IMG/VR virus record: IMGVR_UViG_3300030380_004562
Location: 6,834 to 49,324 of that record
Source: a virus
Length of the DNA: 42,491 nt
Direction: 5' to 3' (one strand)
In this document: one piece after another, positions 4,577 through 41,957 of the stretch
How positions within the stretch are numbered: the stretch's first letter is position 1
Layout: every line of letters begins with the position of its first letter
Made by a program: the position numbers and the translations under genes
Notes under the pieces: model-generated
What the model was told of the DNA's origin: nothing
The model's input: only the letters and a program-made list of their open reading frames with translations
Database searches by the model: none

Positions 4577-5167
4577 ATGAAAAGCGTTTACAACTTTGTT
4601 GTAAAGCCAAAAGGAGAAAGATATAATAATACTAAAAAATTAGATGGTGGAGAGTTAATTCTTAACACTGATATATATCAACATAAGTATATAAATAGAG
4701 AAGCTATAGTTATATCAACGCCTATAATTGGTGATACAAACATAAAACCAGGAGACACAGTAATAGTACATCATAATGTTTTTCGTAGATGGAACGATGT
4801 TAAAGGTATTGAAAGAAATAGTAGAAGTTATTTTAATGAAAATACTTATTTAATAAACCACGATCAAATTTTTTTATATAAAACAAAAGACAAGTGGATA
4901 GCTCCAAAAGGATATTGTTTTGTATCACCGTTAAAAGCTACAGATAAATTTAACATTAAACGAGAAAAACCTTTACAAGGTATTGTAAAATATTCTGATG
5001 GTACTGTTAAAGTTAACGAGTTAGTTGGTTTTAGACCAAATAGCGAATATGAATTTATAGTTGATGGCGAAAGACTATTTAGAGTTTTATCTAATTTTAT
5101 TACAATTAAATATGAATATCAAGGAAACGAAGAAGCTTATAATCCAAGCTGGGCACAGAGCAGTTGA
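4577..5167 (+). CDS. GroES-like co-chaperonin-fold protein, apparently duplicated
   Basis: This 196-residue protein follows the GroES pattern: an opening strand MKSVYNFVVKPKGE, a loop-then-strand LDGGELIL (residues 22-29), REAIVISTPIIGDT, then the diagnostic IKPGDTVIVHHNVFR (56-70) and a closing NHDQIFLYK. A second half (about 109-180) repeats the logic more loosely: GYCFVSPLK, PLQGIVKYSD, NELVGFRPNSEYEFIVDGERLFRV and NFITIKYE. Phage GroES-like proteins such as T4 gp31 replace host GroES to fold the capsid protein, and this gene sits upstream of the packaging and capsid genes. The assignment rests on pattern recognition only. A non-chaperone beta-barrel remains possible. Confidence 0.55.
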   Translation: MKSVYNFVVKPKGERYNNTKKLDGGELILNTDIYQHKYINREAIVISTPIIGDTNIKPGDTVIVHHNVFRRWNDVKGIERNSRSYFNENTYLINHDQIFLYKTKDKWIAPKGYCFVSPLKATDKFNIKREKPLQGIVKYSDGTVKVNELVGFRPNSEYEFIVDGERLFRVLSNFITIKYEYQGNEEAYNPSWAQSS

Positions 5168-21800: not shown

Positions 21801-23033
21801 AAAGTAAAAGGTTGGGTAAGTTTTAAATCTTTTATTGAAATGCAGAATGCTGTTAGCATGGCAAATGATTATTATACTTTTTTTGAAGGCGAACTTTACA
21901 AACATTACGACGAAACTGTAGATAGAAATACTTTTTACGGTAACTTTACAGAATCTTCTTTCGATGTTGTTTTAAACGATCAACCTTCTTTGGTAAAAGT
22001 TTACAATACACTAAACTATGAAGGCACACAGTCGAGAGTACAACCTTTTGTAAACGAGCTAGTACAATTAGATTTTCAACCAAATACTACTTATAATGAT
22101 CAAAGAATTTATAATCTTGCTAAAAAAGAGGGTTGGTATGTTGAAACTATAGTTACTAATAAAGAAACAGGTGAGATAAACGAGTTTATAGAAAAAGAAG
22201 GTAAATGGTTTAACGCTGTAAATAAAGTTGTTGATATTGTAGTAGAAAAAGCTGATACAGCTGATTTTAGTTTTCAAGGTATTGGTACTGTTGGTAACAT
22301 TGGCTCTGTTGTTACTGGTGGAGGTACTACAATGCAGTGCCCAGTGCCTACAATTAGTGTTAACGCTAATTCTGACTTAACGTTTGTAATACCACCGCCA
22401 ACGCCGCTAAGTGCTACTTTAGGTGGTTATGACACCTACGCTTGGACATTGACATCGCCTACTGGAATAGTAACAACTGGTTCAACTGGTGTTTTACCTT
22501 CTGTTAGTAACGCGGATTTATTATCAAATGGCACTGGTGATTGGACATTTGACGTGCAGTTTAATTGGGTAGATATAACATCTTGTACAAGCACGGCTAC
22601 TATTTACATCGCGCCTGGATGTACAAATTCTCAAGCAGTTAATTATGATGCTAACGCTAATCTTGATGATGGAAGCTGTCGATTACCTGATCCTATATTT
22701 GGTTGTACCGATCCTACGGCTAGCAATTATAACCCAGCAGCCACACAAGATGATGGTAGTTGCCAGTATAGACTACCTAATGATCCAATAGATTTTGGTG
22801 ATCTTGATATTCCTACTGATGACGATGACGATACACGTGGTGAAATAAGTGAGATTGCAACACCTCTTCAAGAGCCTATTAAAGAAGAACCTGTCAAAGA
22901 AGAATCTGTTATAGAATTAATTTCAGAGGTTCTTCTAGAACCAACACCAGAAATAGATGCAGATGCATATGATGATGGTAGTAGTCCAGATGATAGTGAA
23001 GAGGATATTAAAAAAATAAAAAAAGGATATTAA
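15882..23033 (+). CDS. giant tail nozzle/muzzle protein (T7 gp12-like) with host-repeat tail
   Basis: This 2383-residue protein starts with KQFTKGKMNKDLDERLVPNG then EYRDAMNIQV, a signature of gp12-like nozzle and crAss-type stabilisation/muzzle proteins. Beta-propeller-like segments continue through residues 1-900 (YRYKYEDGEYSPFAPFTQVAF). They resume at about 1780-2090 (HSRDSDLVTFCEDKVLRI, FASEDYRVYFTDKVRGKVLRLS, MGSYDDRNDEYNLKLEI). Between about 945 and 1595 lies a large Tyr/Trp/Gly/Asn/His-rich insertion (WWFTAGYQESERDNDGFMGS), a plausible receptor-contacting domain. An immunoglobulin-like region precedes two cysteine repeats at 2246-2294. An acidic Glu/Asp-rich terminus ends in IKKIKKGY. 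It is probably the distal tail tube and main host-contacting part. Confidence 0.8.
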   Translation: MPEMKKQFTKGKMNKDLDERLVPNGEYRDAMNIQVATSEDGDVATVQNILGNSRIPILVKSPFGGAIGVGPTLAPFIFPSEAKVVASISDEKVDTLYWFIWTPDIDYIISYNKNDASPRFIFVDKNKSALKFSEDYVITGINIIDGMIFWTDNRTEPKKINIQRCLAGTTDPYNGIPTSIIFAQQTKLINLDAQLGPAGGPTSNNTPVDIEEKHITVIKKAPPKPMGMELEGVRENDRVYTGIINLETDDDAVNTSSFAQQSYFNGPQTIADQSDVYDFSAFDVGDVVAIRISEGITNNGNIVNLGALNNPTSGLTGWQTGNNNDILEGTKVVLSVFDDYNDPPGLPITDYSIKGILVSSNAGTTTTSVPNGQGGVIYLEITNIVGYAPQADPTIGQQTLQMAIDLFDEEEKLFEFKFPRFSYRYKYEDGEYSPFAPFTQVAFVPGSFDYHPKKGYNLGMANTIRAIRLSRFLNKKTPQDVVAVDILFKDEPSPVIYVVDTLKPKDNALNNAQFLSGVPLNAWNTVRNGGQYVIEKETVNQVVEENQLLRPWDNVPRRALAQDVTGNRVVYANYVQNYDLLTQSGSQYYPEFKTAWKEFNPLPAQSNKSCKTLREYQLGVVFIDKYGRETPVISNPSGTMKLEKERAALNNRIRVGLKGDITNHPQDVDYMKFFVKETSGEYYNMAMDRWYNAEDDNVWLAFPSNERNKIDIDTFLILKKGSDQDNLVTEPARYKVLAIESEAPDFIKTKPLLVNEIVHYYPSYDAGGTLLSDNTPIFENDISNAPIEGIKEFKLLYNQYKDSTASNLHEYLATGNGELYIEFAHQTEEEISNRYKITNITCTWDGGTVQDDDTFNIQTEKPLGNDVNFISDDPTGLDPQQITDGTIIRFYKYEVINAAQFDGRFFVKIYMDDVFKQNIEKQYKTEEGYRVLQEEMIYYMKENWFEQFTQHMSWWFTAGYQESERDNDGFMGSRIHSPAYTYPNFNTKASGNDFFGSIWSLMNRTALMKYWGAPGDNDYDHAEEHGGSSYNTDSNGNLKHYGHYGNDKFMASALYFRRYKLIDNEYHDNSFNLTFDSSLYGSWSGRYNHRWAYCYFTSGDKRDPNNWVHVSEAQHEANWGVGSHFSYYDQVGDGWREYVFEGPRWQGSGDGSSEPSHNCYQYKAGTYEDNYNACRDAEVWFIDNGRITGKRTTSNDLVLNDADGEYHQYITENDYNCDKDGSAGGPRGLVKYQGANKHSLYLSFGGIFGMRNPGGGTTTHKHENHFGIGAWNDKDNNGFYDDTNLNNFVGKMNPGYRYKWKEDPTKTLFTLGARIYGDGRYLNHSTRRGTYKGKTYSLKLKKAPTRFNMSRNMDGAVAHNYRKGWRMFDIVPVPVWDPTVQGKIPAGLEIKLTPCNSSGGDTDNGNVTTGDQTGPNGNEVSIYVKTLVDSNSNYGVKKLHEGMALQSFKRASDNTTVTIQSISGFNDTNEKWHTGNDFLVVIKIIPRDTSGAVNALKPNYYELQLGGYNFPMQENDHSWLQAPGSTTHPQVGTNGEYHFVQVGMNGHNSNTEFNINENAYKIGSQNGNGQAFGKIGAVGYKIQFVDEIEPEEVFPTNPAIWETEPKETKDLDIYYEATGAIPFNFTAENVHEAFPIGSYITPPGQWLSIASGEPVYVYGYLNEEILLSEINPIAVDDINTNIDDTIAVPINSSLYFQANGIYFVTTPSGLTFSVEVTGIGNALNISAITIEPRLYNGNFELPYFNCYSFGNGVESNRIRDNFNLPFISNGVKVSTTLEADYKEERRQYGLIYSGIYNSISGVNNLNQFIQAEKITKDVNPIYGSIQKLHSRDSDLVTFCEDKVLRIQANKDALFNADGNTNVTASSNVLGQAIPFAGEYGISTNPESFASEDYRVYFTDKVRGKVLRLSRDGMTPISQYGMTDWFKDNLRLVPDEGKIMGSYDDRNDEYNLKLEIKENVTDEAFTPKIITYSEKVKGWVSFKSFIEMQNAVSMANDYYTFFEGELYKHYDETVDRNTFYGNFTESSFDVVLNDQPSLVKVYNTLNYEGTQSRVQPFVNELVQLDFQPNTTYNDQRIYNLAKKEGWYVETIVTNKETGEINEFIEKEGKWFNAVNKVVDIVVEKADTADFSFQGIGTVGNIGSVVTGGGTTMQCPVPTISVNANSDLTFVIPPPTPLSATLGGYDTYAWTLTSPTGIVTTGSTGVLPSVSNADLLSNGTGDWTFDVQFNWVDITSCTSTATIYIAPGCTNSQAVNYDANANLDDGSCRLPDPIFGCTDPTASNYNPAATQDDGSCQYRLPNDPIDFGDLDIPTDDDDDTRGEISEIATPLQEPIKEEPVKEESVIELISEVLLEPTPEIDADAYDDGSSPDDSEEDIKKIKKGY
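22617..22763 (+). repeat. two GC.D...DDGSC repeats in the muzzle C-terminus
   Basis: Residues 2246-2294 hold two tandem copies of a 21-residue unit. Each opens with GCT(N/D), has an NY(D/N)(A/P).A core and closes with DDGSC. They are linked by RLPDPIF. The same unit occurs in the exported protein at 39498. Units of this kind are common in secreted Bacteroidota proteins; the two cysteines probably form a disulphide and the Asp cluster may bind calcium. That is family knowledge and inference. Confidence 0.85.
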
Positions 23034-25245: not shown

Positions 25246-25935
25246 ATGGCTTATAAAAAATCATCTCCTGCTAAGTTTATAAACGCTTTGTTTGGCGGTG
25301 CCGCAAGAAGAAGAGAACAAAGAGCAGCTAACGAAGATTTAGGTAATCAAATGGATTCGTGGGAGGATACTAAAATGACAAACCCTTATGCTGGCGTAAA
25401 AAACCCATACGCTGATATGGAAAATGTTTATGAAGATCAAACTGTAGATTTAAAAGCCGCAGAGTTTGCTAAACAGCAATCACAACAAAACATGGCTAAT
25501 ATTATGGCTAATATGAAAGGCGCTGCTGGTGGTAGTGGTGTAGCTGGTTTAGCGCAGGTGTTAGCTAATCAAGGTGCTAAACAGGCACAACAAGCCTCTG
25601 CTGATATAGGTAGACAAGAACAAGCTAATCAAGCTAGAGCAAGAGGTGAGGCTGGTAGACTACAACAATTATCTAGAGAAGGTGAACAAAAAAGAGATAT
25701 GTTAGAAAGAGAAGGTAAGCGTATGGTAGAACAGTTTGATATGGATAAACAAAATAAAATGCTTGAAATGGCTCTTGGTAGAAAAGCTTCTGCTGACCAA
25801 GCTATTGACAATGCGAACGCACAGTTAGATCAATTTGTTTCCGGTGCCGTTACTGGTGGTTTAACCGGTGGTTTATCACTACTTGGGGGTTCTGGAGGTT
25901 CTGGAGGGGGTTCTGATAGTAGTGGTACTGAATAA
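25246..25935 (+). CDS. putative internal virion (ejection) protein, gp14-like
   Basis: This 229-residue protein has a short basic N-terminus with KSSPAKFINALFGGAARRR, then NPYAGVKNPYADMENVYEDQ, a motif pattern frequent in phage internal proteins. An Ala/Gly/Gln-rich helical region follows (AANMKGAAGG-like, GVAGLAQVLANQGAKQAQQA). A long charged helix (GRLQQLSREGEQKRDMLERE) comes next, and the Gly-rich hydrophobic C-terminus is GAVTGGLTGGLSLLGGSGGS. This matches small ejection proteins that cross the outer membrane during DNA entry (T7 gp14 type). It heads a block with the protein at 25950 and the giant protein at 26781. Confidence 0.65.
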   Translation: MAYKKSSPAKFINALFGGAARRREQRAANEDLGNQMDSWEDTKMTNPYAGVKNPYADMENVYEDQTVDLKAAEFAKQQSQQNMANIMANMKGAAGGSGVAGLAQVLANQGAKQAQQASADIGRQEQANQARARGEAGRLQQLSREGEQKRDMLEREGKRMVEQFDMDKQNKMLEMALGRKASADQAIDNANAQLDQFVSGAVTGGLTGGLSLLGGSGGSGGGSDSSGTE

Positions 25936-25949
25936 TAAAAAATAAAATT

Positions 25950-26777
25950 ATGGCAGATAAAGTAGTTAAAAAATATTTTGAAAATATGCCTTATGGCGAA
26001 AAGTCTAAGGCGAGCGAAGTGCACGGTAAAGCAAATCAAGATGTTATAAATAATTTTGTATCAAGCTTGGTTAGAAACTATGACGTGGCTATGGCAGAGG
26101 GTGATAAAATAAAAGCGGGTAAATTTTATAATGCTGTTACAAAAATAAACTCTGATTTAGAAAATTTAAAAGGTATTAAAGAAGAGTTTGCTATGAACTA
26201 CGGCGGTGGTGTAGGTGGCAAAAACTTATTTTCAAATTATACGGATTTAACTTGGGATCGTAAGTTTTGGACTGAGCAAGGCAGAATAAACTTTGATGAT
26301 AATATGAACATGCTTCTTACCGTTGCTGATGATCAAGGTCAAGATGTAACAAAAAAAATATCTGATATTACAGAGAATTGGGTTATAAAAGGTAACGGCG
26401 AAAACTCTTATATGACCATGCAGCAAGACGCTGTTAAACAGCAAAACACTATGGGTAAACCATTAGACTTTGATGTTGATTTTGCTGTTAGTAATTTATT
26501 AGCAGAAAATGATAACTGGAAGTCTTTTGTATCTGATAAAATTGGTGGTAGATATTTCTTACAAGATTATATGAGCGAAAATGCTGAAATGCTACAAAAA
26601 ATGGGGCCTGGCGCTGAAAACATATTACAGCTTGACGCGTTTAATCCAGAAATAGATAATAGACTACATGAGTACTTTGCTAATAGAATTAAACGGTCTT
26701 TTGATCCTAACTTTCAAACTAGAGAAGAAGCTAGAAAAGCTGATGAAATAAGAAACCAAACTAAAAAATCAAGCTAA
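25950..26777 (+). CDS. putative internal virion (ejection) protein
   Basis: This 275-residue protein is mixed alpha/beta and charged, with no membrane segment or catalytic motif. Recognisable stretches are NKISDI-type strands, WDRKFWTEQGRINFDDNMNM and a helical C-terminus, LHEYFANRIKRSFDPNFQTR, followed by a Lys-rich end. Its gap to the giant protein is three bases and its start sits in the AAAATTATGG context. By position it is a virion-internal or ejection partner. I do not recognise the family independently. Confidence 0.55.
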   Translation: MADKVVKKYFENMPYGEKSKASEVHGKANQDVINNFVSSLVRNYDVAMAEGDKIKAGKFYNAVTKINSDLENLKGIKEEFAMNYGGGVGGKNLFSNYTDLTWDRKFWTEQGRINFDDNMNMLLTVADDQGQDVTKKISDITENWVIKGNGENSYMTMQQDAVKQQNTMGKPLDFDVDFAVSNLLAENDNWKSFVSDKIGGRYFLQDYMSENAEMLQKMGPGAENILQLDAFNPEIDNRLHEYFANRIKRSFDPNFQTREEARKADEIRNQTKKSS

Positions 26778-26780
26778 TAA

Positions 26781-29700
26781 ATGGACGTAAAGTTTAATAC
26801 ATTTTTTCAAGGCACTAGAGCTCTTGCGAATTTACACTCTCAAAATAATGTAGAGCTGGATACTATTATGCAGCCTTATGTTGACCGTTTTAACAATGGT
26901 GAAATTACAGAAAAAGAACTTGCCGAGGTAAGAAAGCGAGAGGCTAATATATTAGCTAATAAAAAAGAAGTGCAAAGGCAAGAGCAAGAAGAAAAAAGAA
27001 AAATAGAAGCTCAAACTACAGCAAAAACAACTACAAAAAAGCCTGAAGAAAAAAAGCCTAAGATTCAAAACAACAATCCTTTATACAACAGTTTTAGACC
27101 TGACGTTAAGCTTGATAAACAAGGAAATGATTTTTTTAATCTTGAAGAAAAAGACGCTAAAGGTAGATTAGATACAAAGTTTAAAAATACTAATATAAGT
27201 TTTGAAAAAACAAACATAGCAATAGGCACTAAAAACCCAGATGATATTAGAGAAGGGTTTTTTAGCGATATATCAACACTTGTTGATGACACCGCGGACT
27301 CTTATAGAAAATCTAGAGACGCTATAAAGGTTGTAGCTAAAGATGATAATGGTAACGTAATAGCTACAGAGCTTATAGAATTAGACGTGCAAGGTATGCT
27401 TCAACCAAAAGAAGGTTGGGATGCTATTAAAGTAAAAAATTACAATAAACTAGCTAATTTTTTAGACGAACATTTAAGTGAAGAGTCAAAACAACTTGTT
27501 TTGCAAAACAGCGAGGATATAGCTGAAATACTTAAAAAAACAGAAGAAAACATACTTGAGCCTACTGAACAAGAATATGTAGATCAAATAAATAAAAAAC
27601 AAATAACATCAATAGATATATTTGATGAAAAAGAAGATTTTGTAGCTACACCTGGTGGTGGTATGCCTATTACTCAAGAGTTTGGCGGTTACGAAGAAGA
27701 AATAAAAGAAGCTAGAACACAGCTAATAAAAGAAAGAAAAAACGCTGCTAATGTTAGTGACATGCCTTATAAAGGTCCAACTATTGATGAGGTAAAAGAA
27801 AGAGCTTTGTTAAACTTACAAAATAAAGAAAAAAGATATGTAAGACAGGAAAAGTACGATGAATATCTTAATGATATTGAAAAGTTTAGTAGAGGTCTTG
27901 GTCTTGATATCAATAGAGAAATAGAGCAACTAGCAGAAGAACAAGGTATAAAAAAAACAGGACCACTTGGTATAACTCAAGAATATGTAGATTTTGCACA
28001 AAGCGTTAAAGACTCTTATAAAGAAAAATACTATTCTTTAAAACAAGCTGGTGCAGATGAAGAGGCTAATGCTATTTTAGATTATAAAAAAAATGAAGTA
28101 GCGCTAAAAATATCTGTAGATAAACTAACTGTATCAGATGCTTATAAAAGATTTAACGAAACAAATGTTAATATAAACGATTTAAATCATGTTTATCCTA
28201 GGGCTGAGCAAGAGGTTAAACTGGAAAACGGTAAAATAATACCCTTAGACATTTGGGAACAGCATATGAGAGATCACGCTGAGTTACAACCTATACTTGA
28301 AGAAGTTCAAAATTCTATGTTGGTAGCCGATAAGTCTATCAAAACTATAAAAGATAGAAACTTTCAGTGGGATATGATAAAAAGAAACTATAACGATTTT
28401 GAGCGTACGCAAGAAATTCTAGGTTATGGTTTTGCTAACATAGGTGTTGGTACTATTTATGGTATACCTAAGCTTTTGAGCTTTGGTTATGCTGAGGGAG
28501 GTATTAGTGATGACGAAATGATTAGGATTAAAGAGGTAAACGCTAAAGTTAGAAACTCTTTTAGAAAGGATGTAGATTTTGATAGAGCTTTTGAAGATGG
28601 AAATTTTGGTAGGTTTATGGGTCAAGCTGCTGTTGATCAGATACCTATATACGCCACTATAGCGACTGGTAATGTAGGCTTAGGTATTCTTGGTGCTTCT
28701 GTTTTTGGTGACAAGTGGGCTGAAATGACTATGGAAGAAAGATATAGCAATGGACTTATAAACCATCCAAAGTGGAAAAAATGGTTTATGAGTTTAGGTT
28801 ATGGGGCTTCTGAAATAGTTTTAGATTATGCTATTACAGTTCCAATAATGCGTAATGCTAAATTGGCTATGATGGGTGGGACCGGTAAAGCCTTAGTAGA
28901 TAATAGTAGTAATGCTTTTTTTAGAAAATTTACAGCTAGAAGTTTAGTTTATTCTCCGCTTTTAGAAGGTATTAGTGAAGGCTCTACGCAGATAGCTCAA
29001 AACATGATAGATGGTAAAAATATACTTGAAAACTTAGACCACGCTGCTTTTTTAGGTCTTACAATGGGTTTTGGTATTGGCGGTGGTGGTTTTGTTGTTG
29101 GCGCTATTAATTCTCAGTTTTCAGATCATAAAACGTTTAAAACAGTTAGAGAAAAGCTTACAGAAATGCAAGAGCTACAAAAATCTATTGATGACTTAAA
29201 CTTGTATAAAAACGAAAAAGGTGTTGATACAAAAAAGGCTGAACAAGAAATAAAAAACCAAGAAAAAAGAAGAGATGAGTTATTAGATGAAGCTAATGAT
29301 CTTATAAAAACTATACACTCTGATGTTAAAGATCTTGAGGAAAATGCTTATAATGCTTTTTTAGATCATATAAACTATCAAGAACAATTAAAAATAAGAG
29401 CCAAAGAAATATTAGAAGGTAATCTACCTGAGGTTCAAAAACAAAAACAACTAGGCGTTTTACTTACAATGTTCAATGATTCTAAAAGCGCGGCTAATGA
29501 GTTTAAAGATCCAAAAACATTTGGTAGTAGATGGCCTTTGATAAGAGCAGACAAATCAGAAGAAGGTAAGAAAAGGTATAATGATTTAATAAAAGAATCT
29601 AAAAGAATATTAAAAGAAGATGGTGTTTTAGACGCAGATGAAAAACAAATAGACAAAAAAGCTAAAGAAATATGGGCTAAAGAAGAAGTTAGAAAAAGCA

Positions 29701-32700
29701 ATGAGGTATTTAAAAGAAATAATTTAAGTAAAAATTATAATTATTTCGAAACAATGGAAGATGGTGTAAAAGAAATCAACAAGCAAATACAAGAGGAAAT
29801 AGATTTTTATAATAAAAAACTACAAGACGGCGTAGAGGAAGTTGTTATGGATGGTGAAAAAATAAAAGTTAAAGAAATTATTGATGGACTTGTAGAAGAA
29901 AGAAAAATACTTAGCTCTAATATTAGATCAGGTAAAATGTATGGCTTAACTCGTATTGACAAGCGTGACATGTCTAGTAAATCTATATCTATAGTAGAAA
30001 CACAAGCTAGAGCTGAAAGATTTGAAACTAGAGTACACGAAGGTGCTCATCAAGCTTTTTGGGATGCTTTAATGCTTGATGATAATAGTGCTCAATTTGA
30101 ACCAATGGCTGAGCAAATATTAGAGTGGACTAAAAAAAATGACGAGCGATTATATAAAAGAATACTTTTAAAAACACAAGGGCAATCAGCTTCTGAAATA
30201 GTAGCAGTTTTTGTTGAGGAAGTTGCAGACAGTGGATTCACTACTGAAAGTAAAAGAAACTTTGCTAATCTTTGGGGTTTAATGGCTAACAAAACCATGT
30301 ATGATATTTATGGAGAAAAAGTAGATTTTTCAGGAGAAACAAATGCAGTAAAATTTTTAGCTGGTCTTAGTAAAAAAATAAAAGAAGGTAAGCTTGTTAA
30401 AAAAGATATACAAAGTATACGTCGAAGTGAACTTTTAAAATCATTTGCTGGTATTAAAAATGCAAAAGGTAAAAAAACTATGTTTTCTAGAGACGTAATT
30501 AATCCTAAAGCAAAAGAATATTTAGAAGCTAAAATAGATGGAGAATTAATATACACAAATGAATCTTTAGTTGATATAATAAATGCTAAAACTTCTTCTC
30601 AAGAAGAGAGGTTTGCTGCTGTTGAAGCTTTAATTGAGAAAAATTGGCCTGTAATCAGTAAGTCTTTAAAGTTTAATCCAACTGGTAATATATCAATGCC
30701 TTCTATTAAAGAGGCTATAGCTGAGCAAATGTTAGGTATATTTCCTAGGGTTATATTAGCAGATGGTAGTAAAATAAATAGAGAGGGCAAGCGTTTACTT
30801 GATACATACAATAAGGAACAAAAAGTAACAACTTTTTTAGACGCAACATTAAGACCTAGACAAGCTGAAATACTTGTTAGAGCTAGCGCTATAGATTCTA
30901 TTACTGAAAACGTAGACTTGTCAGAAGCGAAAGATGTTAAAGCTCCAGAACCAACAACAACAACAACACAACAGCGTGTAGTTATAAAAGAAAAAGTAGT
31001 ACTAGAAACTTTTGGTGAAAAAGCTTTACAAAACGAAATAAGAGGTAATGTTGTGGGAATTGGAATCTCAGGTATCAACAAGTATATAGATGTTAAAAAA
31101 GCAATAACTGATCATAAAAAGTTTACTAAAGATGGCACTGAAATAACACCAGAATACAAAGCGGCACAAAAGAAATTAGAAAAAGCTGCTGTAGAAAAAT
31201 ATAAAAAACAAGGGTTTACAGAGAAAGAAGCAAAAAAACAAGCTAAAAAAGATCACGGTGTTGTTGAATTAAAATCTCTACGTGAACCAAAGGGTATGTA
31301 TTATCCAATATTAGAGAAAATCGCTGCTGTGTACGGTGTTGACCCATTAAGATTAATTAGAGAGCAAGATTTTGATACAAAACAAAGAAAATCTGCTCAA
31401 GATTATATATTGTCAAAAAGAGATGAGCATATTGTTTCAATACCAGAAGGTACTACAAGAGCGGGTGACCCAACAGGTATTGCTAACACAATAATAGGTA
31501 GAGAGTTTTTTAAAGCTGGTGGTAGAATGAAATTTAAAACCACTGGTACTGGTAAAGGTTTAAAAGAACAAGCTAAACAAAGAATAGAACCAATGGATTA
31601 TTTAGCTATATTTGGTTTAATACCTAAAGCTAGGGTTAATAATTCGTCTGTTGATCCAGCTCTTAGATCTCAAATAATATCAACAGCTACTATAGCTATT
31701 AACCAAGCGGTGAGACAAGAAAAAGACGCTCTTAATTTAACTAAAGAAAGAATTGATAGAATAAAAGACGGTAAGGGCTCTGTTATGTTTTCAAGTGATA
31801 ATGATGCTACAAACTTCAAAAAGACCTACCAAATAACATTAACTGAATTAAGTAAAATAATTGGTTATAGGAGAATACCAATGATAACTAAAACTAGAAA
31901 GTCTGGTAAAACAGGTGAGTTAAAAGAATATTCTACAAGAGATTTAAACGCGCCGCTTGTTATTAATGGAAAAGAAACTGGAGAGACAATATTAAATGGT
32001 GCTACTAGAGTTGTAAATGAATTTGTAAAAGAAAATCCAGAGTTTAGAAACTTATTAAGAAGTACTCTTACCGGTGGTTATAATGCTGGTTTATTTTTAT
32101 ATGCAGAGAGAGATTCTAAAACACCTATTAACGCGCCAGTATTTGATGAGTTAATTGACAATGTAGAAGCCGAGCAGGTTGCTGGTAGAAAAAAATATAC
32201 TACAGATAAATTTGTAAGAGCGGGTTTTAATCAAGATTTTTTAAAAAATTATGATGCTTTAACTGAAAATCAAAAGCTTGACTTTCTATATAAATTTTTT
32301 AAATCTGTAGAAAAACATTTAAAAAACAAACCAAATGATGCTTGGCTTTTTATAGAGTTAATTAGAGACACAAGTAAAAGCCAAAATACACTTACTAGAA
32401 TTTTAGCTCCATTTAAGTTTTATCCAAGGTACAAAGACGGTAGTGTTATTAGTGATCAAAAAGTTACTGAAGAACATACTGATCCACAAAATTTAATTGG
32501 TAAATCATTATTAGCGGCTGCTTTAGTAGGTAAAGTAGATTTTGTATGGCAAGTTATTGGTAAGTCTTATATGCAAGGACCACTACTTGATAGCAAAAAA
32601 TACCCGCACGACACAATTGTTAATAAGGCTGGTTACAAAGAAACAATGCCAGACGTTTATTATGAATTAGTAGTTCCAAGAATTTTAAATGGAGAGTTAA

Positions 32701-35700
32701 AACTACCAAATGGTTACGCTTCAATCGTAAGGTTAGCTGTAGCTGTACACCCAGATACTAGACAGCAAATAGACTTAGGCATGTATTATTTGCCAGAGTC
32801 TAACATGACTATAACAGAATTTTTTAAAGTAGATAACGTTGAAAGTATAGAGCAACAAAACGAGTTAATTGTTAAGCAATTAACAGGCGAAGTTGACGCT
32901 ATGTTCTCAAGAGATTTTGGTAGTATAGGTTTAAATCCTGTAACACAACAAGGTAAACAACTAGACAAAGCGGTAATGTTTTCTAGAGAAACGTTTGATA
33001 AATTTCAAGCTCAAAAACAAAAAGGTAAAGAGTTTGTTAAATCAATAAAACCACAGTTAAAACAGTCTAGAGGTATTACAGTTTTAGACTTTGATGATAC
33101 ATTAGCTACAACTAAATCTTTAGTTAGATTTACAACTCCAGATGGTGAGACAGGTACGTTAAACGCGGAACAATATGCCAGTACATACGTAGATTTATTA
33201 GATCAAGGTTATGTATTTGACTTTTCAGAGTTTAATAAAGTTGTTAAAGGTAAAATAGCACCACTGTTTCAAAAAGCATTAAAGCTACAAAAGAAGTTTG
33301 GTCCTGAAAATATGTTTGTATTAACAGCTAGACCACCTGCCGCTCAAAAAGCTATATTTGATTTTTTAAAAGCTAATGGCTTAAATATACCTTTAAAAAA
33401 TATTACTGGTTTAGGTAATAGCACTGCTGAAGCAAAAGCATTGTGGATAGCTGATAAAGTTGGTGATGGTTATAATGACTTTTATTTTGCTGACGACGCG
33501 TTACAAAACGTACAAGCTGTTGATAATATGCTAGAGCAGTTTGATGTTAAGCGTAAAGTACAACAAGCAAAACTTATGTTTAGTCGAGACATGGATACAA
33601 ACTTTAATGATATACTAGAATCAGTAACAGGCATAGAATCTATAAAAGAATTTTCTAAAACACAAGCTGAAATAAGAGGTAAAAGCTCTAAATACAAAAG
33701 TATAATACCTCCTTCTGCTCAAGACTTTATGGGATTAATATATAACTTTATAGGTAAAGGTAAACGAGGTGATGCTGATTTAGCTTTCTTTAAAAAAGCT
33801 TTAGTAGATCCGTTTGCTAGAGGTATAAATGAATTAAATACTTCAAGACAAAGAGCTGCAAACGATTTACAAAACTTAAACAAAAAACTACCTGAAGTTA
33901 AAAAGAAATTATACAAAAAAGTAAAAGGCACTAATTTTACCAATGACCAAGCAATGAGAGTTTATCTTTGGAATAAAGCTGGTTTTGAAGTACCTGGTTT
34001 ATCTAAAAGAGATCAAAAAACATTAGTTGAAGCGGTTGAAAACGATTCTAAACTAAAGGCTTACGCAGAAGCTGTAAGCTTAATTTCTAAACAAGAAAAT
34101 GTTTATAGAGAACCTAAAGAATATTGGTTGTCAGAAAATATAGCATCAGACCTGTTAGATGATGGCGCTGTTGGTGATGCTAGATCAAATTTTATAGCTG
34201 AGTGGATAGAAAATAAAAATGTTATATTTAGTCCTAAAAACTTAAATAAAATAGAAGCTATATATGGTAGTAAGTTTAGAGAAGCTTTAGAAGATGTTTT
34301 ATATGCTATGGAAACTGGTAGAAGCAGGCCAAGAGATGGTGGTAGGTTATTAAATATGTATACCAATTGGGTTAACAACTCTGTTGGTGCAATTATGTTC
34401 TTTAACATGAGATCTGCACTTTTACAGACTATATCTATGACCAACTATATAAACTGGTCTGATAACAATCCTTTGAAGGCTGCCGCCGCGTTTGCTAATC
34501 AAAAACAATATTGGAAAGACTTTACTTTCATATTTAATTCAGACTTCTTAAAACAAAGGAGAACAGGTAATAGAAGAGGTATAAACGAACAAGAGTTATC
34601 AGCTGCTGTTGCAGGTAGTGATAATAAAGCTAAAGCAGCTATTGCTTGGTTGCTTAGTAAAGGATTTTTACCTACGCAAATTGCAGATAGTTTTGCTATT
34701 GCTAGTGGTGGTGCTACTTTTTATAGAAACAGAATTAAAAAGTATTTAAAAGAAGGCATGACACAAGAGCAAGCTGAGAAAAAAGCTTTTTTAGATTTTC
34801 AAGAAGTTACTGAAGTGTCACAGCAGTCTGCAAGACCTGATATGATATCGCAGCAACAAAGAAGTCCCCTTGGTAGATTAATACTTGCATTTGGTAATAC
34901 ACCTATGCAGTATGCAAGGATAATGAATAAAGCAGCTAGAGATTTAGTTAACGGTAGAGGTGATTATAAAACGCATATATCTAAAATAGCTTATTATGGT
35001 TTCATACAGTCTGTTATATTTAGTGCTTTACAATCTGCTTTATTTGCTTCGTTAGGTGATGACAAAGAAGAAGACTTTAATAAAAAGAAAGAAAGAATAC
35101 TAAATCAAATAGTTGACAGTATGTTAACAGGTATTGGTTTTGGTGGTAAGGCAATTAGTACCGTTAAAAATACTATAATAACATTTTTAGATCAAAGAGA
35201 CAGAGGTTTTAGAGCTGACCACGCTTATACTTTATTGCAGCTTTTAAGTTTTTCTCCACCAATAGGTTCTAAATTAAGAAAAGTATATTCGTCTATAAAA
35301 ACAGATCAGTACAACAAAGATGTTTACATGAGGAGAGGTTTTACTTTAGACAACCCTATATGGCAAGCTATTGGTAATGTTGTTGAGGGTATTACTAACT
35401 TGCCTCTTGGTAGAATGTCAAACAAAATGTTAAACATTGATAATGCTCTTGACGAAAGCAACAAGTGGTGGCAGAGAGCTGCTTTACTTTTAGGTTGGAA
35501 TACTTGGGATTTAGGTATTAGAGATCCTGATATTGAAGAAATAAAAGAAGAAGTAAAAAAAGAAAAGAAACAAGCTTCTAAAATAAAAGCAGAAATAAAA
35601 AGAAAAGAGAAGCAAATAGAAAAACAAGAGGCTGAAAAAGCTATAGTAGAAGAAAACAAAAAGAAAAGTGAAAAAGATGGTAGATGCGCTGCTATAAGTG

Positions 35701-35876
35701 GAAGCGGTAAAAGATGTAAAAACAAAGCAGTGAGTGGTGGTTTTTGTACAATACATGAAAAAGTTGAGGCTAGAAAAGACGGTAAACAAGTTCAGTGTTC
35801 TGCTACGAAATCTAACGGTAAACGATGTAAAATGAAAACTACTAATAAATCTGGTAGATGTTACTACCACGATTAG
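26781..35876 (+). CDS. giant polyvalent internal virion protein: HEGAH peptidase, HAD phosphatase, MFSR-punctuated
   Basis: This is a 3031-residue putative ejected multi-domain protein. Residues 1-1233 contain coiled coils, Gly/Ala-rich hydrophobic helices (about 611-650 and 754-778) and a zincin motif HEGAH (1086-1090), with downstream glutamates E1139 and E1146/E1147 as candidate third ligands. MFSRD, MFSSD, MFSRD, MFSRE and MFSRD occur at 1234, 1669, 2041, 2066 and 2266. The 2066-2265 segment is a HAD phosphatase: DFDDT (D2103, D2105), LTARP (T2182) and FADD (D2238, D2239). From 2266 to the end is a helical, partly hydrophobic module shared by large marine phage proteins (VGAIMFFNMRSALLQTISM; IAYYGFIQSVIFSALQS). 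Two C-terminal Cys/His finger-like repeats (from C2969) close the protein. Polyvalent-protein identity is by architecture; cleavage at MFSR is inferred. Confidence 0.8.
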   Translation: MDVKFNTFFQGTRALANLHSQNNVELDTIMQPYVDRFNNGEITEKELAEVRKREANILANKKEVQRQEQEEKRKIEAQTTAKTTTKKPEEKKPKIQNNNPLYNSFRPDVKLDKQGNDFFNLEEKDAKGRLDTKFKNTNISFEKTNIAIGTKNPDDIREGFFSDISTLVDDTADSYRKSRDAIKVVAKDDNGNVIATELIELDVQGMLQPKEGWDAIKVKNYNKLANFLDEHLSEESKQLVLQNSEDIAEILKKTEENILEPTEQEYVDQINKKQITSIDIFDEKEDFVATPGGGMPITQEFGGYEEEIKEARTQLIKERKNAANVSDMPYKGPTIDEVKERALLNLQNKEKRYVRQEKYDEYLNDIEKFSRGLGLDINREIEQLAEEQGIKKTGPLGITQEYVDFAQSVKDSYKEKYYSLKQAGADEEANAILDYKKNEVALKISVDKLTVSDAYKRFNETNVNINDLNHVYPRAEQEVKLENGKIIPLDIWEQHMRDHAELQPILEEVQNSMLVADKSIKTIKDRNFQWDMIKRNYNDFERTQEILGYGFANIGVGTIYGIPKLLSFGYAEGGISDDEMIRIKEVNAKVRNSFRKDVDFDRAFEDGNFGRFMGQAAVDQIPIYATIATGNVGLGILGASVFGDKWAEMTMEERYSNGLINHPKWKKWFMSLGYGASEIVLDYAITVPIMRNAKLAMMGGTGKALVDNSSNAFFRKFTARSLVYSPLLEGISEGSTQIAQNMIDGKNILENLDHAAFLGLTMGFGIGGGGFVVGAINSQFSDHKTFKTVREKLTEMQELQKSIDDLNLYKNEKGVDTKKAEQEIKNQEKRRDELLDEANDLIKTIHSDVKDLEENAYNAFLDHINYQEQLKIRAKEILEGNLPEVQKQKQLGVLLTMFNDSKSAANEFKDPKTFGSRWPLIRADKSEEGKKRYNDLIKESKRILKEDGVLDADEKQIDKKAKEIWAKEEVRKSNEVFKRNNLSKNYNYFETMEDGVKEINKQIQEEIDFYNKKLQDGVEEVVMDGEKIKVKEIIDGLVEERKILSSNIRSGKMYGLTRIDKRDMSSKSISIVETQARAERFETRVHEGAHQAFWDALMLDDNSAQFEPMAEQILEWTKKNDERLYKRILLKTQGQSASEIVAVFVEEVADSGFTTESKRNFANLWGLMANKTMYDIYGEKVDFSGETNAVKFLAGLSKKIKEGKLVKKDIQSIRRSELLKSFAGIKNAKGKKTMFSRDVINPKAKEYLEAKIDGELIYTNESLVDIINAKTSSQEERFAAVEALIEKNWPVISKSLKFNPTGNISMPSIKEAIAEQMLGIFPRVILADGSKINREGKRLLDTYNKEQKVTTFLDATLRPRQAEILVRASAIDSITENVDLSEAKDVKAPEPTTTTTQQRVVIKEKVVLETFGEKALQNEIRGNVVGIGISGINKYIDVKKAITDHKKFTKDGTEITPEYKAAQKKLEKAAVEKYKKQGFTEKEAKKQAKKDHGVVELKSLREPKGMYYPILEKIAAVYGVDPLRLIREQDFDTKQRKSAQDYILSKRDEHIVSIPEGTTRAGDPTGIANTIIGREFFKAGGRMKFKTTGTGKGLKEQAKQRIEPMDYLAIFGLIPKARVNNSSVDPALRSQIISTATIAINQAVRQEKDALNLTKERIDRIKDGKGSVMFSSDNDATNFKKTYQITLTELSKIIGYRRIPMITKTRKSGKTGELKEYSTRDLNAPLVINGKETGETILNGATRVVNEFVKENPEFRNLLRSTLTGGYNAGLFLYAERDSKTPINAPVFDELIDNVEAEQVAGRKKYTTDKFVRAGFNQDFLKNYDALTENQKLDFLYKFFKSVEKHLKNKPNDAWLFIELIRDTSKSQNTLTRILAPFKFYPRYKDGSVISDQKVTEEHTDPQNLIGKSLLAAALVGKVDFVWQVIGKSYMQGPLLDSKKYPHDTIVNKAGYKETMPDVYYELVVPRILNGELKLPNGYASIVRLAVAVHPDTRQQIDLGMYYLPESNMTITEFFKVDNVESIEQQNELIVKQLTGEVDAMFSRDFGSIGLNPVTQQGKQLDKAVMFSRETFDKFQAQKQKGKEFVKSIKPQLKQSRGITVLDFDDTLATTKSLVRFTTPDGETGTLNAEQYASTYVDLLDQGYVFDFSEFNKVVKGKIAPLFQKALKLQKKFGPENMFVLTARPPAAQKAIFDFLKANGLNIPLKNITGLGNSTAEAKALWIADKVGDGYNDFYFADDALQNVQAVDNMLEQFDVKRKVQQAKLMFSRDMDTNFNDILESVTGIESIKEFSKTQAEIRGKSSKYKSIIPPSAQDFMGLIYNFIGKGKRGDADLAFFKKALVDPFARGINELNTSRQRAANDLQNLNKKLPEVKKKLYKKVKGTNFTNDQAMRVYLWNKAGFEVPGLSKRDQKTLVEAVENDSKLKAYAEAVSLISKQENVYREPKEYWLSENIASDLLDDGAVGDARSNFIAEWIENKNVIFSPKNLNKIEAIYGSKFREALEDVLYAMETGRSRPRDGGRLLNMYTNWVNNSVGAIMFFNMRSALLQTISMTNYINWSDNNPLKAAAAFANQKQYWKDFTFIFNSDFLKQRRTGNRRGINEQELSAAVAGSDNKAKAAIAWLLSKGFLPTQIADSFAIASGGATFYRNRIKKYLKEGMTQEQAEKKAFLDFQEVTEVSQQSARPDMISQQQRSPLGRLILAFGNTPMQYARIMNKAARDLVNGRGDYKTHISKIAYYGFIQSVIFSALQSALFASLGDDKEEDFNKKKERILNQIVDSMLTGIGFGGKAISTVKNTIITFLDQRDRGFRADHAYTLLQLLSFSPPIGSKLRKVYSSIKTDQYNKDVYMRRGFTLDNPIWQAIGNVVEGITNLPLGRMSNKMLNIDNALDESNKWWQRAALLLGWNTWDLGIRDPDIEEIKEEVKKEKKQASKIKAEIKRKEKQIEKQEAEKAIVEENKKKSEKDGRCAAISGSGKRCKNKAVSGGFCTIHEKVEARKDGKQVQCSATKSNGKRCKMKTTNKSGRCYYHD

Positions 35877-37661: not shown

Positions 37662-38054
37662 ATGGCATACGTACAAAAAAACAATCCTTTTCCTGTAACA
37701 AGTTGTGGTAGACGTAGAACGTTTACTCAAGGTGGTAGCCCGGGTAAAGATCGTACAGAAGAAAGTCCGTTTCAAAAAGCAGATCCACGTAGAACTATAG
37801 GTCCTGGTAAAAATTTTAACAAAGCAAAGCCAACAGGCACAGGTGCTGACGCCGGTGGTGGTATGACACAAAAAGGTGTTAATGAATACAAAAGAAATAA
37901 CCCTGGTAGTAAATTAAAAACAGCTGTCACTACTGATCCTTCTAAATTAAAAAAAGGTAGTAAAGCAGCTAAACGTAGAAAATCATTTTGTGCTAGATCA
38001 AAAGGTTGGACTGGCGAAAGAGGTAAAGCAGCGAGAAGAAGATGGAATTGTTAA
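37662..38054 (+). CDS. small basic SP-motif protein
   Basis: This 130-residue, strongly basic protein starts at the ATG of a TAATATG junction; a start four codons upstream overlaps the previous gene. The N-terminus has NNPFPVTSCGRRRTFTQGGS followed by PGKD. A Gly/Thr-rich linker follows. The C-terminus, KSFCARSKGWTGERGKAARR with a final RWNC, is similar to small basic phage proteins I have seen but cannot name. Four Cys/Arg-rich clusters could bind zinc or nucleic acid. It overlaps the PAP2 gene by 13 bases. Confidence 0.6.
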   Translation: MAYVQKNNPFPVTSCGRRRTFTQGGSPGKDRTEESPFQKADPRRTIGPGKNFNKAKPTGTGADAGGGMTQKGVNEYKRNNPGSKLKTAVTTDPSKLKKGSKAAKRRKSFCARSKGWTGERGKAARRRWNC

Positions 38055-38569
38055 AAGATTTTAAAATAAAAAAGTATTTAGATAAAAAACCACCTAGTGA
38101 TAATTCTACAACCACTAAGGGTGAGATAACTGAATTAACTAAAATACCTATAAAAGAAAAATTTATAAAAGAAAAAGATGACATTAAAAAATCTTTTAGT
38201 AAAATAGTTAAAGAAGACGAGTTGGTTGAAAAGCTTATTAAACAATCTGCACCTATTATTATGAAAATAAAAAAACATCATAATAGACCAAGACCTAAAG
38301 TTATAGCTAAAAAACTAAACACAAAAATGAAAGATATGGAAATGGCTTCAATGAAAACGCCGTCATATCCATCGGGGCACTCTGCTCAAGGTTATTTAAT
38401 AGGCATGACTTTGGCAAACAAATACCCTCAAAAAAGAGACAAGCTAATGAAAACAGCTAGAGATATATCCTACAGTAGAAGAGTGGCTAGAGCACACTAC
38501 TTATCTGACTCTAGGCTTGGAGAAGAAATAGGTAAAGATATGTATAACTATATAAAAGATAAAATATGA
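38042..38569 (+). CDS. soluble PAP2-family acid phosphatase
   Basis: This 175-residue protein contains the complete three-part PAP2/vanadium-haloperoxidase signature. KxxxxxxRP is at K75-P83, PSGH at 110-113 and SRxxxxxHxxxD at S145-D156. H113, H152, D156, R82 and R146 are the expected catalytic residues. No membrane helices or signal peptide are visible, so it belongs to the soluble class A-like group rather than the lipid-embedded one. The first 60 residues are charged and probably unstructured. It could dephosphorylate nucleotides, sugar phosphates or exposed lipid phosphates; the substrate is unknown. It is coupled by overlaps to basic small-protein genes on both sides. Confidence 0.85.
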   Translation: MELLKDFKIKKYLDKKPPSDNSTTTKGEITELTKIPIKEKFIKEKDDIKKSFSKIVKEDELVEKLIKQSAPIIMKIKKHHNRPRPKVIAKKLNTKMKDMEMASMKTPSYPSGHSAQGYLIGMTLANKYPQKRDKLMKTARDISYSRRVARAHYLSDSRLGEEIGKDMYNYIKDKI

Positions 38570-39264: not shown

Positions 39265-39501
39265 ATGTGGAAATTATTTAAAGATAAAAACGATATAAAC
39301 GAAAAAAACGTAGTTGGTTTTATATCATTTGCCATAATGGTATTATTTGCTATTATAGATTTAGGTACCGCTGTTATATATATGGGATATGTAGGAGGTG
39401 GAGAACTAGAAATTAATGACACCATATACAACTCTTTTGTTATGGTAACATTGGGATGCTTTGGTATTAGTGCGTTTGAAAAAGTAAAAACAAAAGAATG
39501 A
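39265..39501 (+). CDS. two-segment holin-like membrane protein
   Basis: This 78-residue protein starts MWKLFKDKNDINEKN, then has two membrane segments (VGFISFAIMVLFAIIDLGTA and SFVMVTLGCFGISAF) and a basic EKVKTKE end. The end echoes the GAYFGGRSLEKVKK tail of the holin at 790, so it may be a shorter, second holin or an antiholin. The ATG at 39265 follows the previous stop by one base; an ORF start at 39229 lies inside the upstream gene and is rejected. The next gene overlaps it by ATGA. Confidence 0.6.
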   Translation: MWKLFKDKNDINEKNVVGFISFAIMVLFAIIDLGTAVIYMGYVGGGELEINDTIYNSFVMVTLGCFGISAFEKVKTKE

Positions 39502-41957
39502 AAAAAATATTATTATTACTATTACTACCTATATTTAGCTTTGGACAAAACTGTATACCAACGTTAACAGTTAAAGATACATGTTCATATGGCTACGCTA
39601 GAACTTGGATAGAGTGGAACTCGTTAGACAGTGGTTGTGCAATACAAAATATACATAGAGGAACTCCATACAACACTTACACTTGGAGTTGGAATAGTCA
39701 AGATACCAACTATATGTTTATTAATAATTATAGTCCTGGTGATCCTTTCGCTAGCTCAGAAGGTTTTTGGGTGGTATTTGAAATGGCTGACAGCACTTTT
39801 ACTGATACTGTTTTTGCAAATCAGTTTGTTTGTATTGAAGGTTGTATGGACCCTGCTTATGATAATTATGATCCATTGGCTAATATACCAGATGTTTGCT
39901 TAGCAATACCACCACCACAAGATGATTGTGCTGATAGCACTACAACATCTATAACTTTAGAAATAACACCAGATACATATGAAAGCGAAACATCAATAGA
40001 TATTATAAACCAAAATGATAGTGTTTTATTTAACCTACCACAAGGGTTTTTTAATAGTGTTGGAACTGGTAATTTATATACTAATACTATATGTGTACCT
40101 ATAGATGATACAGTAAGATTTATAATATATGATTCCTATGGAGACGGAATATGTGGTTCTTGTTTTGGAGGTGTTGATGGTAAAGTTTTAATCACCGATG
40201 AGTGTGGTGATGTTATATATAGTTTACTACCTGGTGATAATTTAAACTTCGGAGATTCTGACACTTCAGACGCTTTCGCAATGAAAGATTGTAGTTGGGA
40301 ACCTATAGTTGGTTGTCCTAACCCAGGTTATTTAGAGTTCAATCCAGCAGCTGATTCAATGAATCCAGCATTATGTGCTACGCCGAGAGTTGTAGGTTGT
40401 ATGGATACTACTATGTTTGATTTTGATCCTACTGCTAATGTACCTTTGATGGAAGATAGTTGTAATTATGAATTACACTTAACAGATGGAGGGGGTGATG
40501 GTTGGCTAGGTGCTTATATTATGGTAAATCAACTAGGTAATTCATATGGCCCATATACTAATGTAAGTTCTTCTGTAGAGATTATACATTTAAATTTAAA
40601 ATCAAATCACCCGGTAACAATTAGAGCTTATTCACAAACTAGCTCTGACGCCACACTAGATCAGGTTGGTTTTAAATTAATAAACCCAGAAGGAAATATT
40701 ATATTGTCAGGTGGTACAAATCCTTGGAATGATAGAATAAGAATATTTCCAGATAACTATATAGTGTTACCAAATTGCCCTACTATATGCGACCCATATG
40801 TTTATGGTTGCATGGACAATACGGCGTACAATTATAACGATACTGCAAATACTAGCGATGGTAGTTGTTACTATGCTCCAGGTTGTACTGATCCACAGTA
40901 TTTAGAGTATTACACTCAAGGTTTTACAGCTGATTATAACGATGGTAGTTGTGATACACAAGCTGTTTGGGGTTGTACAGATCAGTATGCTTTTAATTAT
41001 GATCCTACGGCTAATTTAGATAACGGTGGTTGCATATCCGTTATTTTAGGCTGTATGAATGAATTAGCGTTTAATTTTAATCCAAACGCAAACACACCAG
41101 ACACTTGTATACCTGTAATAGAAGGATGTACTTCGCCTATAGCTTTAAATTATGATTCGTTAGCAAACACAGATGATGGAAGTTGTATAGGTGTGGTTTA
41201 TGGGTGTATGGATCCAAACGCTTTTAACTATGATCCTCTAGCTAACGTAGATGATTCTAGTTGTGTAGAAATAGTTTATGGATGTATGGATGCTACGGCG
41301 TTTAATTACAACCCTATAGCTAATATTGATAACGGAAACTGTATACCATTTGTTTATGGTTGTACTGATAGCACAATGTTTAATTATGATCCTACAGCTA
41401 ACACAGATAATAACTCTTGTATACCTTACATATATGGTTGCACGGATCCTTCTATGCTTAATTATAACCCACAAGCAAATACGGAGGACTTTAGTTGTAT
41501 TGCTTTTGTTTATGGGTGTATGGATAGTTTGGCCCTTAATTACGATTCACTTGCTAACACGGATAACGGTTCGTGTATCGAAATCATTATGGGCTGCATG
41601 GATCCAAATGCGTATAACTACGAACCAATTGCTAATGTTAATGATACTTTATCTTGTTTATATAGTGCTAATTGCATTACTGGTCCAGGTAATCCTTATT
41701 GGTTAAATGACCCTTGCTACGCTTGGGTATTAGAAGTTGATGATTATTGTTGTGGAAATGCGTGGGATACAATATGTCAATCAACTTATGATTATTGTGC
41801 TGGTACTTGGTCAGGTCCTGTACAAAATAGATATATGCCAAAAAAATTAATAGCAGTTACTGATTTACTAGGTAGACCAACTAAAATAATAAAAAACAAA
41901 GTTTTACTCTACATATATAATGATGGTAGTGTAAAAAGAAAATTAATAAATAAATAG
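39498..41957 (+). CDS. T9SS-targeted secreted protein with 14 GC.D...GSC repeats
   Basis: This 819-residue protein has an N-terminal signal peptide (KKILLLLLLPIFSFGQ, cleavage near residue 16). Residues about 155-270 and 327-430 look like two Asp/Gly-rich beta modules (IIYDSYGDGICG; TDGGGDGWLGAY). Fourteen copies of the GC(M/T)D...DNGSC-type repeat lie between residues 115 and 720, eleven of them tightly arrayed at the C-terminal side. A CC..AWD..C module (about 725-776) follows, as seen in Bacteroidota surface proteins. The last 40 residues, PKKLIAVTDLLGRPTK then YIYNDGSVKRKL, match a T9SS type A sorting domain. It should be exported through the host outer membrane. Starts at an ATGA junction with the holin-like gene. 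Confidence 0.85.
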   Translation: MKKILLLLLLPIFSFGQNCIPTLTVKDTCSYGYARTWIEWNSLDSGCAIQNIHRGTPYNTYTWSWNSQDTNYMFINNYSPGDPFASSEGFWVVFEMADSTFTDTVFANQFVCIEGCMDPAYDNYDPLANIPDVCLAIPPPQDDCADSTTTSITLEITPDTYESETSIDIINQNDSVLFNLPQGFFNSVGTGNLYTNTICVPIDDTVRFIIYDSYGDGICGSCFGGVDGKVLITDECGDVIYSLLPGDNLNFGDSDTSDAFAMKDCSWEPIVGCPNPGYLEFNPAADSMNPALCATPRVVGCMDTTMFDFDPTANVPLMEDSCNYELHLTDGGGDGWLGAYIMVNQLGNSYGPYTNVSSSVEIIHLNLKSNHPVTIRAYSQTSSDATLDQVGFKLINPEGNIILSGGTNPWNDRIRIFPDNYIVLPNCPTICDPYVYGCMDNTAYNYNDTANTSDGSCYYAPGCTDPQYLEYYTQGFTADYNDGSCDTQAVWGCTDQYAFNYDPTANLDNGGCISVILGCMNELAFNFNPNANTPDTCIPVIEGCTSPIALNYDSLANTDDGSCIGVVYGCMDPNAFNYDPLANVDDSSCVEIVYGCMDATAFNYNPIANIDNGNCIPFVYGCTDSTMFNYDPTANTDNNSCIPYIYGCTDPSMLNYNPQANTEDFSCIAFVYGCMDSLALNYDSLANTDNGSCIEIIMGCMDPNAYNYEPIANVNDTLSCLYSANCITGPGNPYWLNDPCYAWVLEVDDYCCGNAWDTICQSTYDYCAGTWSGPVQNRYMPKKLIAVTDLLGRPTKIIKNKVLLYIYNDGSVKRKLINK
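40806..41657 (+). repeat. tandem array of 11 cysteine-bounded repeats in the secreted protein
   Basis: Eleven degenerate units of about 21 residues, with short linkers such as VVY, FVY or IIM before the next unit, occupy this stretch (three more lie further upstream, from 39840). Each opens GC(M/T)D or similar, has an NY(D/N)P.AN core and ends in an Asp/Asn cluster plus Cys. The unit starting at 40870 is divergent. At DNA level copies differ widely, so the array is old rather than freshly amplified. It is a protein repeat and not a CRISPR array. Confidence 0.85.

Follow-up and report, generated by a model that had tools for sequence, protein, structure and literature searches.

The window analyzed here, 42,491 nucleotides of the 49.3-kb virus contig IMGVR_UViG_3300030380_004562, encodes at positions 26781-35876 of its plus strand a large polyvalent protein (LPP) of 3031 residues, the last gene of a packaging and structural cluster. 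This protein and its relatives carry a short tag, [FY]S[KR], which forms a linear punctuation at the C-terminal edge of an embedded zincin-like metallopeptidase (MPTase) domain and between the later cargo modules, and which we consider almost certain to be a real, conserved interdomain element. The best-supported mechanism, to which the sequence evidence lends about an even chance, is that the zincin embedded in the same chain recognises the tag as a processing site, either in cis or in trans, and that cutting would free the modules while the protein is packaged or once it has been injected.

The first-pass annotation of this open reading frame (ORF) had described a 3031-residue protein with a HEGAH motif, punctuated five times by MFSR(D/E). 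The frame is indeed open over its whole length, HEGAH, an HExxH of catalytic type, lies at residues 1086-1090 (30036-30050, plus strand, as for all parts of the protein given below), and all five motif positions were borne out, even if "five times" was slightly generous for four copies of MFSR and one of MFSS. The copies are MFSRD at residue 1234 (30480-30494), where the zincin module ends, 151 residues past HExxH; MFSSD at 1669 (31785-31799); MFSRD at 2041 (32901-32915), at the C-terminal end of the second module; MFSRE at 2066 (32976-32990), ahead of a HAD-like domain; and MFSRD at 2266 (33576-33590), after that domain. They are preceded by T, V, A, V and L, respectively. No other 4-mer of the protein is as over-represented as MFSR, which has four copies versus 0.007 expected (about 10^-4.7 when corrected for all 4-mers), and FS[KR] occurs at background level in the 26 further ORFs of the window that were checked (3 vs. 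2.8 expected). Synonymous codons vary between the copies (TTT/TTC, TCT/TCA/AGT and AGA/CGA) and the constraint therefore acts on the protein, not on the DNA, which rules out a DNA-level repeat as the origin of the motif. A start-codon remnant was also ruled out as the source of its methionine, since relatives have other residues at that position.

A scan of viral contigs yielded 80 relatives of the protein, and in a further scan relatives of its C-terminal half turned up on at least 584 contigs. Literal MFSR was rejected as the conserved element, being present in only three copies in 363 thousand residues of these relatives; it is rare in them because the conserved element, as sequence comparison defines it, is [FY]S[KR], and MFSR(D/E) is the version that this phage has of a looser motif, approximately [V/A/I/T]-x-[F/Y]-S-[R/K]. 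Position -2 is usually occupied by a small or beta-branched residue and position -1 by K, M or L. In 69 nonredundant relatives FSK is about 3-fold over-represented (160 vs. 52.6 expected), and in 192 control ORFs from the loci of these relatives it is near background (29 vs. 20.8). If composition and homologous descent alone had produced the motif, one would expect sites that are homologous among relatives, and some are: of the 18 context clusters into which 66 tested sites fall, the two largest hold 18 and 17 sites. Nevertheless, the number of separate contexts, combined with the 19 changes that the motif-rich state requires on a tree of 86 proteins, indicates that we are not dealing with one inherited site. 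Given also the flat controls and the replication in an unrelated set of proteins with Pfam-defined borders (see below), chance or shared ancestry is disfavoured and appears highly improbable.

HExxH and the HAD-like domain could both be placed in 55 relatives. Ahead of their single HExxH, FS[KR] does not exceed background (19 vs. 16.9 expected), whereas between HExxH and the HAD-like domain it is found 80 times versus 22.4 expected (P = 4e-21). The strict consensus in the family of the window behaves in the same way, with one occurrence per 61 thousand residues upstream versus 39 per 111 thousand downstream of HExxH. In many relatives the first site after HExxH follows it by 138-166 residues, where the homology of the zincin module stops. 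We compared all relatives against each other to define the edges of homology blocks, using random position shifts as the null; 70 of 204 FS[KR] sites lie at such edges versus 30.2 +/- 5.1 under shifted positions, and none of 2000 shifts reaches 70. This agrees with the earlier proposal that the motif divides the protein at module borders. Equally, the suggested search of homologues was only partly as foreseen: the sites do gather at block edges, and are enriched only C-terminally to the zincin, yet the element concerned is [FY]S[KR] instead of MFSR(D/E) and is shared far beyond this phage. YS[KR] is also in excess at block edges (27 vs. 13.2), as is AS[KR], and permuted triplets, FS[DE], FT[KR] and LS[KR] show no such excess. 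In proteins having an F- or Y-type site after the HAD-like domain, FS[KR] elsewhere in the protein amounts to 70 versus 15.4 expected, compared with 16 versus 8.8 expected in other proteins (P = 0.0035, with no phylogenetic correction). In the relative L020, the HAD-like domain is separated from the C-terminal block by an extra stretch of about 450 residues (approximately 3241-3694); SRK lies close to one end of it and FSK at the opposite end, which looks like the insertion of a module at a tag.

Such a distribution bears on the possibility that the tag is a structural linker, for instance a helix-capping or strand-ending turn that is favoured at module joins where modules shuffle and that needs no partner protein. 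A serine followed by charged or small residues would suit a helix N-cap, a predicted helix follows motif 5, the S[KR] core persists while the preceding residue may be F, Y, A, S or Q, and ASK is enriched at edges together with the aromatic forms. A linker of this kind, however, should be just as frequent in the part before the zincin and in multidomain proteins of other kinds, both of which are at background, and would not account for the exact spacing of the tag past the ends of LPD1 and ART-PolyVal domains described below. We thus consider it distinctly unlikely.

The zincin-like domain spans approximately residues 985-1222 (29733-30446; alignment A2), and the embedded metallopeptidase motif claimed by the first-pass annotation is conserved: HExxH is present in 61 of 61 aligned relatives, with one copy per protein, and a downstream Glu in 98% of them. 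The segment EIVAVFVE (residues 1139-1146; 30195-30218) contains invariant Glu residues that are candidates for the third zinc ligand; E620, F625 and E627 (segment numbering) are invariant in nine aligned sequences. An AlphaFold2 model of residues 520-1260, of modest confidence (mean predicted local distance difference test [pLDDT] 63.8), has strands followed by the HExxH helix and then by the Glu helix, the predicted arrangement of a zincin-like MPTase, and ends in a disordered tail that holds motif 1, with pLDDT <50 up to the site. Foldseek found no match at E < 0.001 for this model of 741 residues. Homology ends at residues 1218-1224 in six of eight relatives, namely at the end of the zincin just before motif 1. 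A second AlphaFold2 model, covering residues 1225-2330 (mean pLDDT 77), contains the HAD-superfamily phosphatase-like domain at approximately residues 2095-2262 (33063-33566), which combines a DxDxT motif (DFDDT at 2103) with a predicted Rossmannoid fold. Its Foldseek matches are the HAD domain of Legionella Lem4 (prob 0.91) and viral HAD/PNKP phosphatases, all with PDB E-values above 0.01, and its Pfam HAD match is weak.

Motifs 1, 2 and 5 lie in these models at domain junctions with pLDDT <50, whereas motifs 3 and 4 are at or near a junction. Motif 2 is within a low-confidence stretch (segment 440-449 of the second model), beside the end of homology at residues 1671-1672 in L005, L010 and L013, and its position is occupied by MFSK, LFSD or MFSQ in relatives. 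Motif 3 lies just ahead of a drop in confidence (segment 826-830), and motif 4 in a low-confidence helix that runs into the HAD-like core; at the homologous position of the latter, relatives have xAR, xSR or FSR, and the homology of many of them starts past it, at 2080-2100. Motif 5 (pLDDT <50 at segment 1042-1044) aligns to FSK, YSK or ASK in most relatives. At least three of the five sites are therefore outside folded domains, and motif strands buried within such domains, which the first-pass annotation had named as evidence against its proposal, are not what the models show.

A second, unrelated set of proteins shows the same pattern. Genome searches with LPD38 led to L186, a polyvalent protein of Pseudomonadota with FYSR, SFSR, TFSR and LYSR between its domains, and a viral scan for such LPD5-type proteins gave 80 loci with 44 nonredundant proteins. 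These LPD5/LPD1/LPD38 proteins, which come from other phages and from prophages (e.g., L186 and L193-L272), resemble that of the window in having HExxH, then [FY]SR, then tags between modules that include ART-PolyVal, MuF_C and LPD37; they differ from it in having another zincin clade and other modules, in preferring Arg over Lys and in often placing L or M before F/Y. The sequence LDNYFSR just past HEWFH was excluded as a tag, being internal to the domain, and the counts omit the first 60 residues past HExxH. Downstream of HExxH there are 37 FSR versus 9.7 expected and 28 YSR versus 8.3 (3.4-3.8 fold for [FY]SR), whereas upstream both are at background (6 vs. 6.4 and 3 vs. 4.8); the strict consensus is found 21 times downstream and never upstream. 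The first site lies 142-204 residues past HExxH in 25 of the 32 proteins having one. In ten Pfam-annotated proteins of this type, none of 33 sites is inside a domain and 15 are within 30 residues of a domain edge, versus 3.6 expected; the first tag is 9-12 residues past LPD1 in all ten, and in three a tag is 9 residues past ART-PolyVal. Two side observations concern individual polyvalent-type proteins. The LPD5-type protein of L256 (4528-10527) contains a LAGLIDADG domain (1170-1234 in the numbering of the translated segment), which may be an intein or homing element, and the archaeal Methanosarcina virus MetMV (L281, 2563-11571) encodes a polyvalent-type protein of 3002 residues with HELTH and a single PMFSRSD 429 residues later.

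Polyvalent proteins as described by Iyer et al. (2017; PMC5512222) are, like that of the window, very large, multimodular and mosaic, with an embedded zincin-like MPTase and predicted delivery with the DNA followed by release of modules. These authors predict autoprocessing by the zincin and cite the processing of phage P1 DdrB, but give no cut site, the words "linker" and "FSR" being absent from their text (PMC5512222); the window adds the tag, of which we found no description in open-licence papers. A recurrent site at domain borders, as in a self-processing polyprotein, is what we observe. Processing by the embedded zincin is the reading that we favour because the tag stands where the zincin ends and at every border after it, and is absent before the zincin; that the tag is cut, by which enzyme and when, we infer.

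Several observations weigh against this reading. The window protein has a long linker at residues 1377-1412 that lacks the motif, a divergent clade of the family shows weak enrichment of FS[KR] (22 vs. 12.6), and the two zincin types are, by sequence comparison, not demonstrably homologous beyond HExxH (hhalign probability 13, E 0.0022), so that we do not claim homology between them. Because the sequences of each set share ancestry, their independence is less than the P values imply, and more weight attaches to the replication in the second set than to any single value. Moreover, several zincin-bearing polyvalent proteins lack the punctuation, as found for Elemovirus gp21, ctfjg026 and Gundel_1 as well as for the Pag-Yong1, BA3 and HExxxH types. 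N4 vRNAP and the MPTase proteins of plasmids move without being processed (PMC5512222). Finally, two apparently full-length relatives, L048 and L061, keep FS[KR] and have no HExxH.

The last two points are those that an uncleaved docking or sorting tag would explain, one that a packaging, portal or chaperone protein would bind in order to hold or thread each module in encapsidation and ejection. The motif is repeated, exposed, interdomain and present once per border, it persists in the two members without HExxH, and N4 vRNAP is packaged unprocessed although its MPTase region is required for encapsidation (PMC5512222). Docking by itself does not explain why the tag is missing ahead of the zincin in two unrelated sets, and we judge it rather unlikely. 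The members without HExxH would also fit cleavage by another enzyme, such as a maturation protease, a host protease or the small zincin of the window, which was an alternative in the first-pass annotation as well. The gene for the latter is present, as a 133-residue ORF with HEMVH at 375-776 that has weak matches to two unknown PHROGs; it is untraced in the loci of relatives, which mostly do not cover that region. No maturation protease was recognised in the window, and the position of the sites relative to the embedded zincin is conserved, which makes this option improbable in comparison with processing by the embedded zincin.

Several known systems lack the tag. Elemovirus gp21, phi38:1 gp101 and Gundel_1 g74 share with the window related TerL and portal proteins and a very large last structural gene, and a zincin is present in three of the four LPPs examined; phi38:1 gp101 has no tag punctuation either. 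P1 DdrB is, like the window protein, a zincin-bearing polyvalent phage protein and is processed before packaging (PMC5512222), but differs in lacking [FY]S[KR], which is absent also from DarA and DarB of P1. Ten LPD38-type proteins of isolated phages and archaeal viruses, some with HExxxH zincins, are not punctuated as a group (19 sites vs. approximately 12.5 expected), and the LPD38 proteins of 400 Pseudomonadota genomes show no overall enrichment when taken together (7 vs. 5.8); ART-PolyVal searches of genomes returned too few full proteins. The LPD38 polyvalent proteins L184, L185 and L187 have the zincin-like motif HExxxH in place of HExxH and no tag, and a scan for relatives of HExxxH zincins gave two loci.

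The genomic setting of the window protein has parallels in isolated podoviruses. The genes upstream of its ORF include TerL, portal and capsid (PHROGs), and TerL and portal match those of isolated flavobacterial podoviruses with 27-63% identity (Elemovirus, Cellulophaga phages, Gundel_1 and the genome ctfjg026). The structural cluster of Elemovirus, phi38:1 and Gundel_1 has a very large gene at or near its end, which carries the annotation "structural protein." Because of this gene order and of the annotation of its positional counterparts, the window protein would probably be packaged in the particle and injected, as an ejection or internal virion protein; two small proteins of 229 and 275 residues encoded just ahead of it (25246-26777, plus strand) would be, on gene order, candidate partners in an ejection complex. 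Its architecture is mosaic, with homology blocks that have differing partners and edges at 1200-1240, 1380-1400, 1500, 1660-1680 and 2080-2100. It thus has many distinct modules in one polypeptide that is mosaic between relatives, as polyvalent proteins do (Iyer et al. 2017). The assignment is made by architecture and not by shared Pfam domains, because Pfam found none of the catalogued LPD, ART or MuF domains in the protein, the only match being DUF5763, below cut-off. Searches of Pfam, PHROGs and PDB for the identity of its modules returned almost nothing, Pfam found no domain in the variable parts of ten relatives, and scans with single modules recovered few relatives. A conserved C-terminal block occupies residues 2275-2913 (33603-35519), covered by about 75 relatives and with 58% mean column identity (alignment A3). 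Beyond it, two DUF5763-like repeats, C-x6-G-x2-C-x(9-11)-C-x2-H (35685-35873; below cut-off), look zinc-binding.

Other genes of the window deserve mention. A GroES-like co-chaperonin (4577-5167; PHROG 13932, E 2e-17) lies immediately upstream of the terminase, and Elemovirus and phi13:2 have an annotated GroES at the corresponding position. A tandemly repeated motif, GC(T/M)D..NY(D/N)..A...DGSC, occurs in an 819-residue ORF with an N-terminal signal-like segment (39498-41957) and also at the C-terminus of a 2383-residue structural protein (15882-23033). Another ORF (38042-38569) contains RPRP...SYPSGHSA, which is similar to the motif of PAP2-type phosphatases.

Zincin processing of polyvalent proteins was proposed by Iyer et al. 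with the site not known, and the tag makes the question testable. The tags are the best candidates yet for the cut positions in such proteins. It is quite possible, if a little short of an even bet, that [FY]S[RK] is a widespread and previously undescribed cleavage code, in which a mid-chain zincin reads a tag at its own C-terminus and between the effectors that follow, in phages of both Bacteroidota and Pseudomonadota. If this is true, the mature set of effectors would become predictable from sequence. A tag predicting how the chain is divided would set the limits of hundreds of effector modules that have no annotation so far, and would tell which portions of such a multi-enzyme chain, once injected, work independently in the new host.
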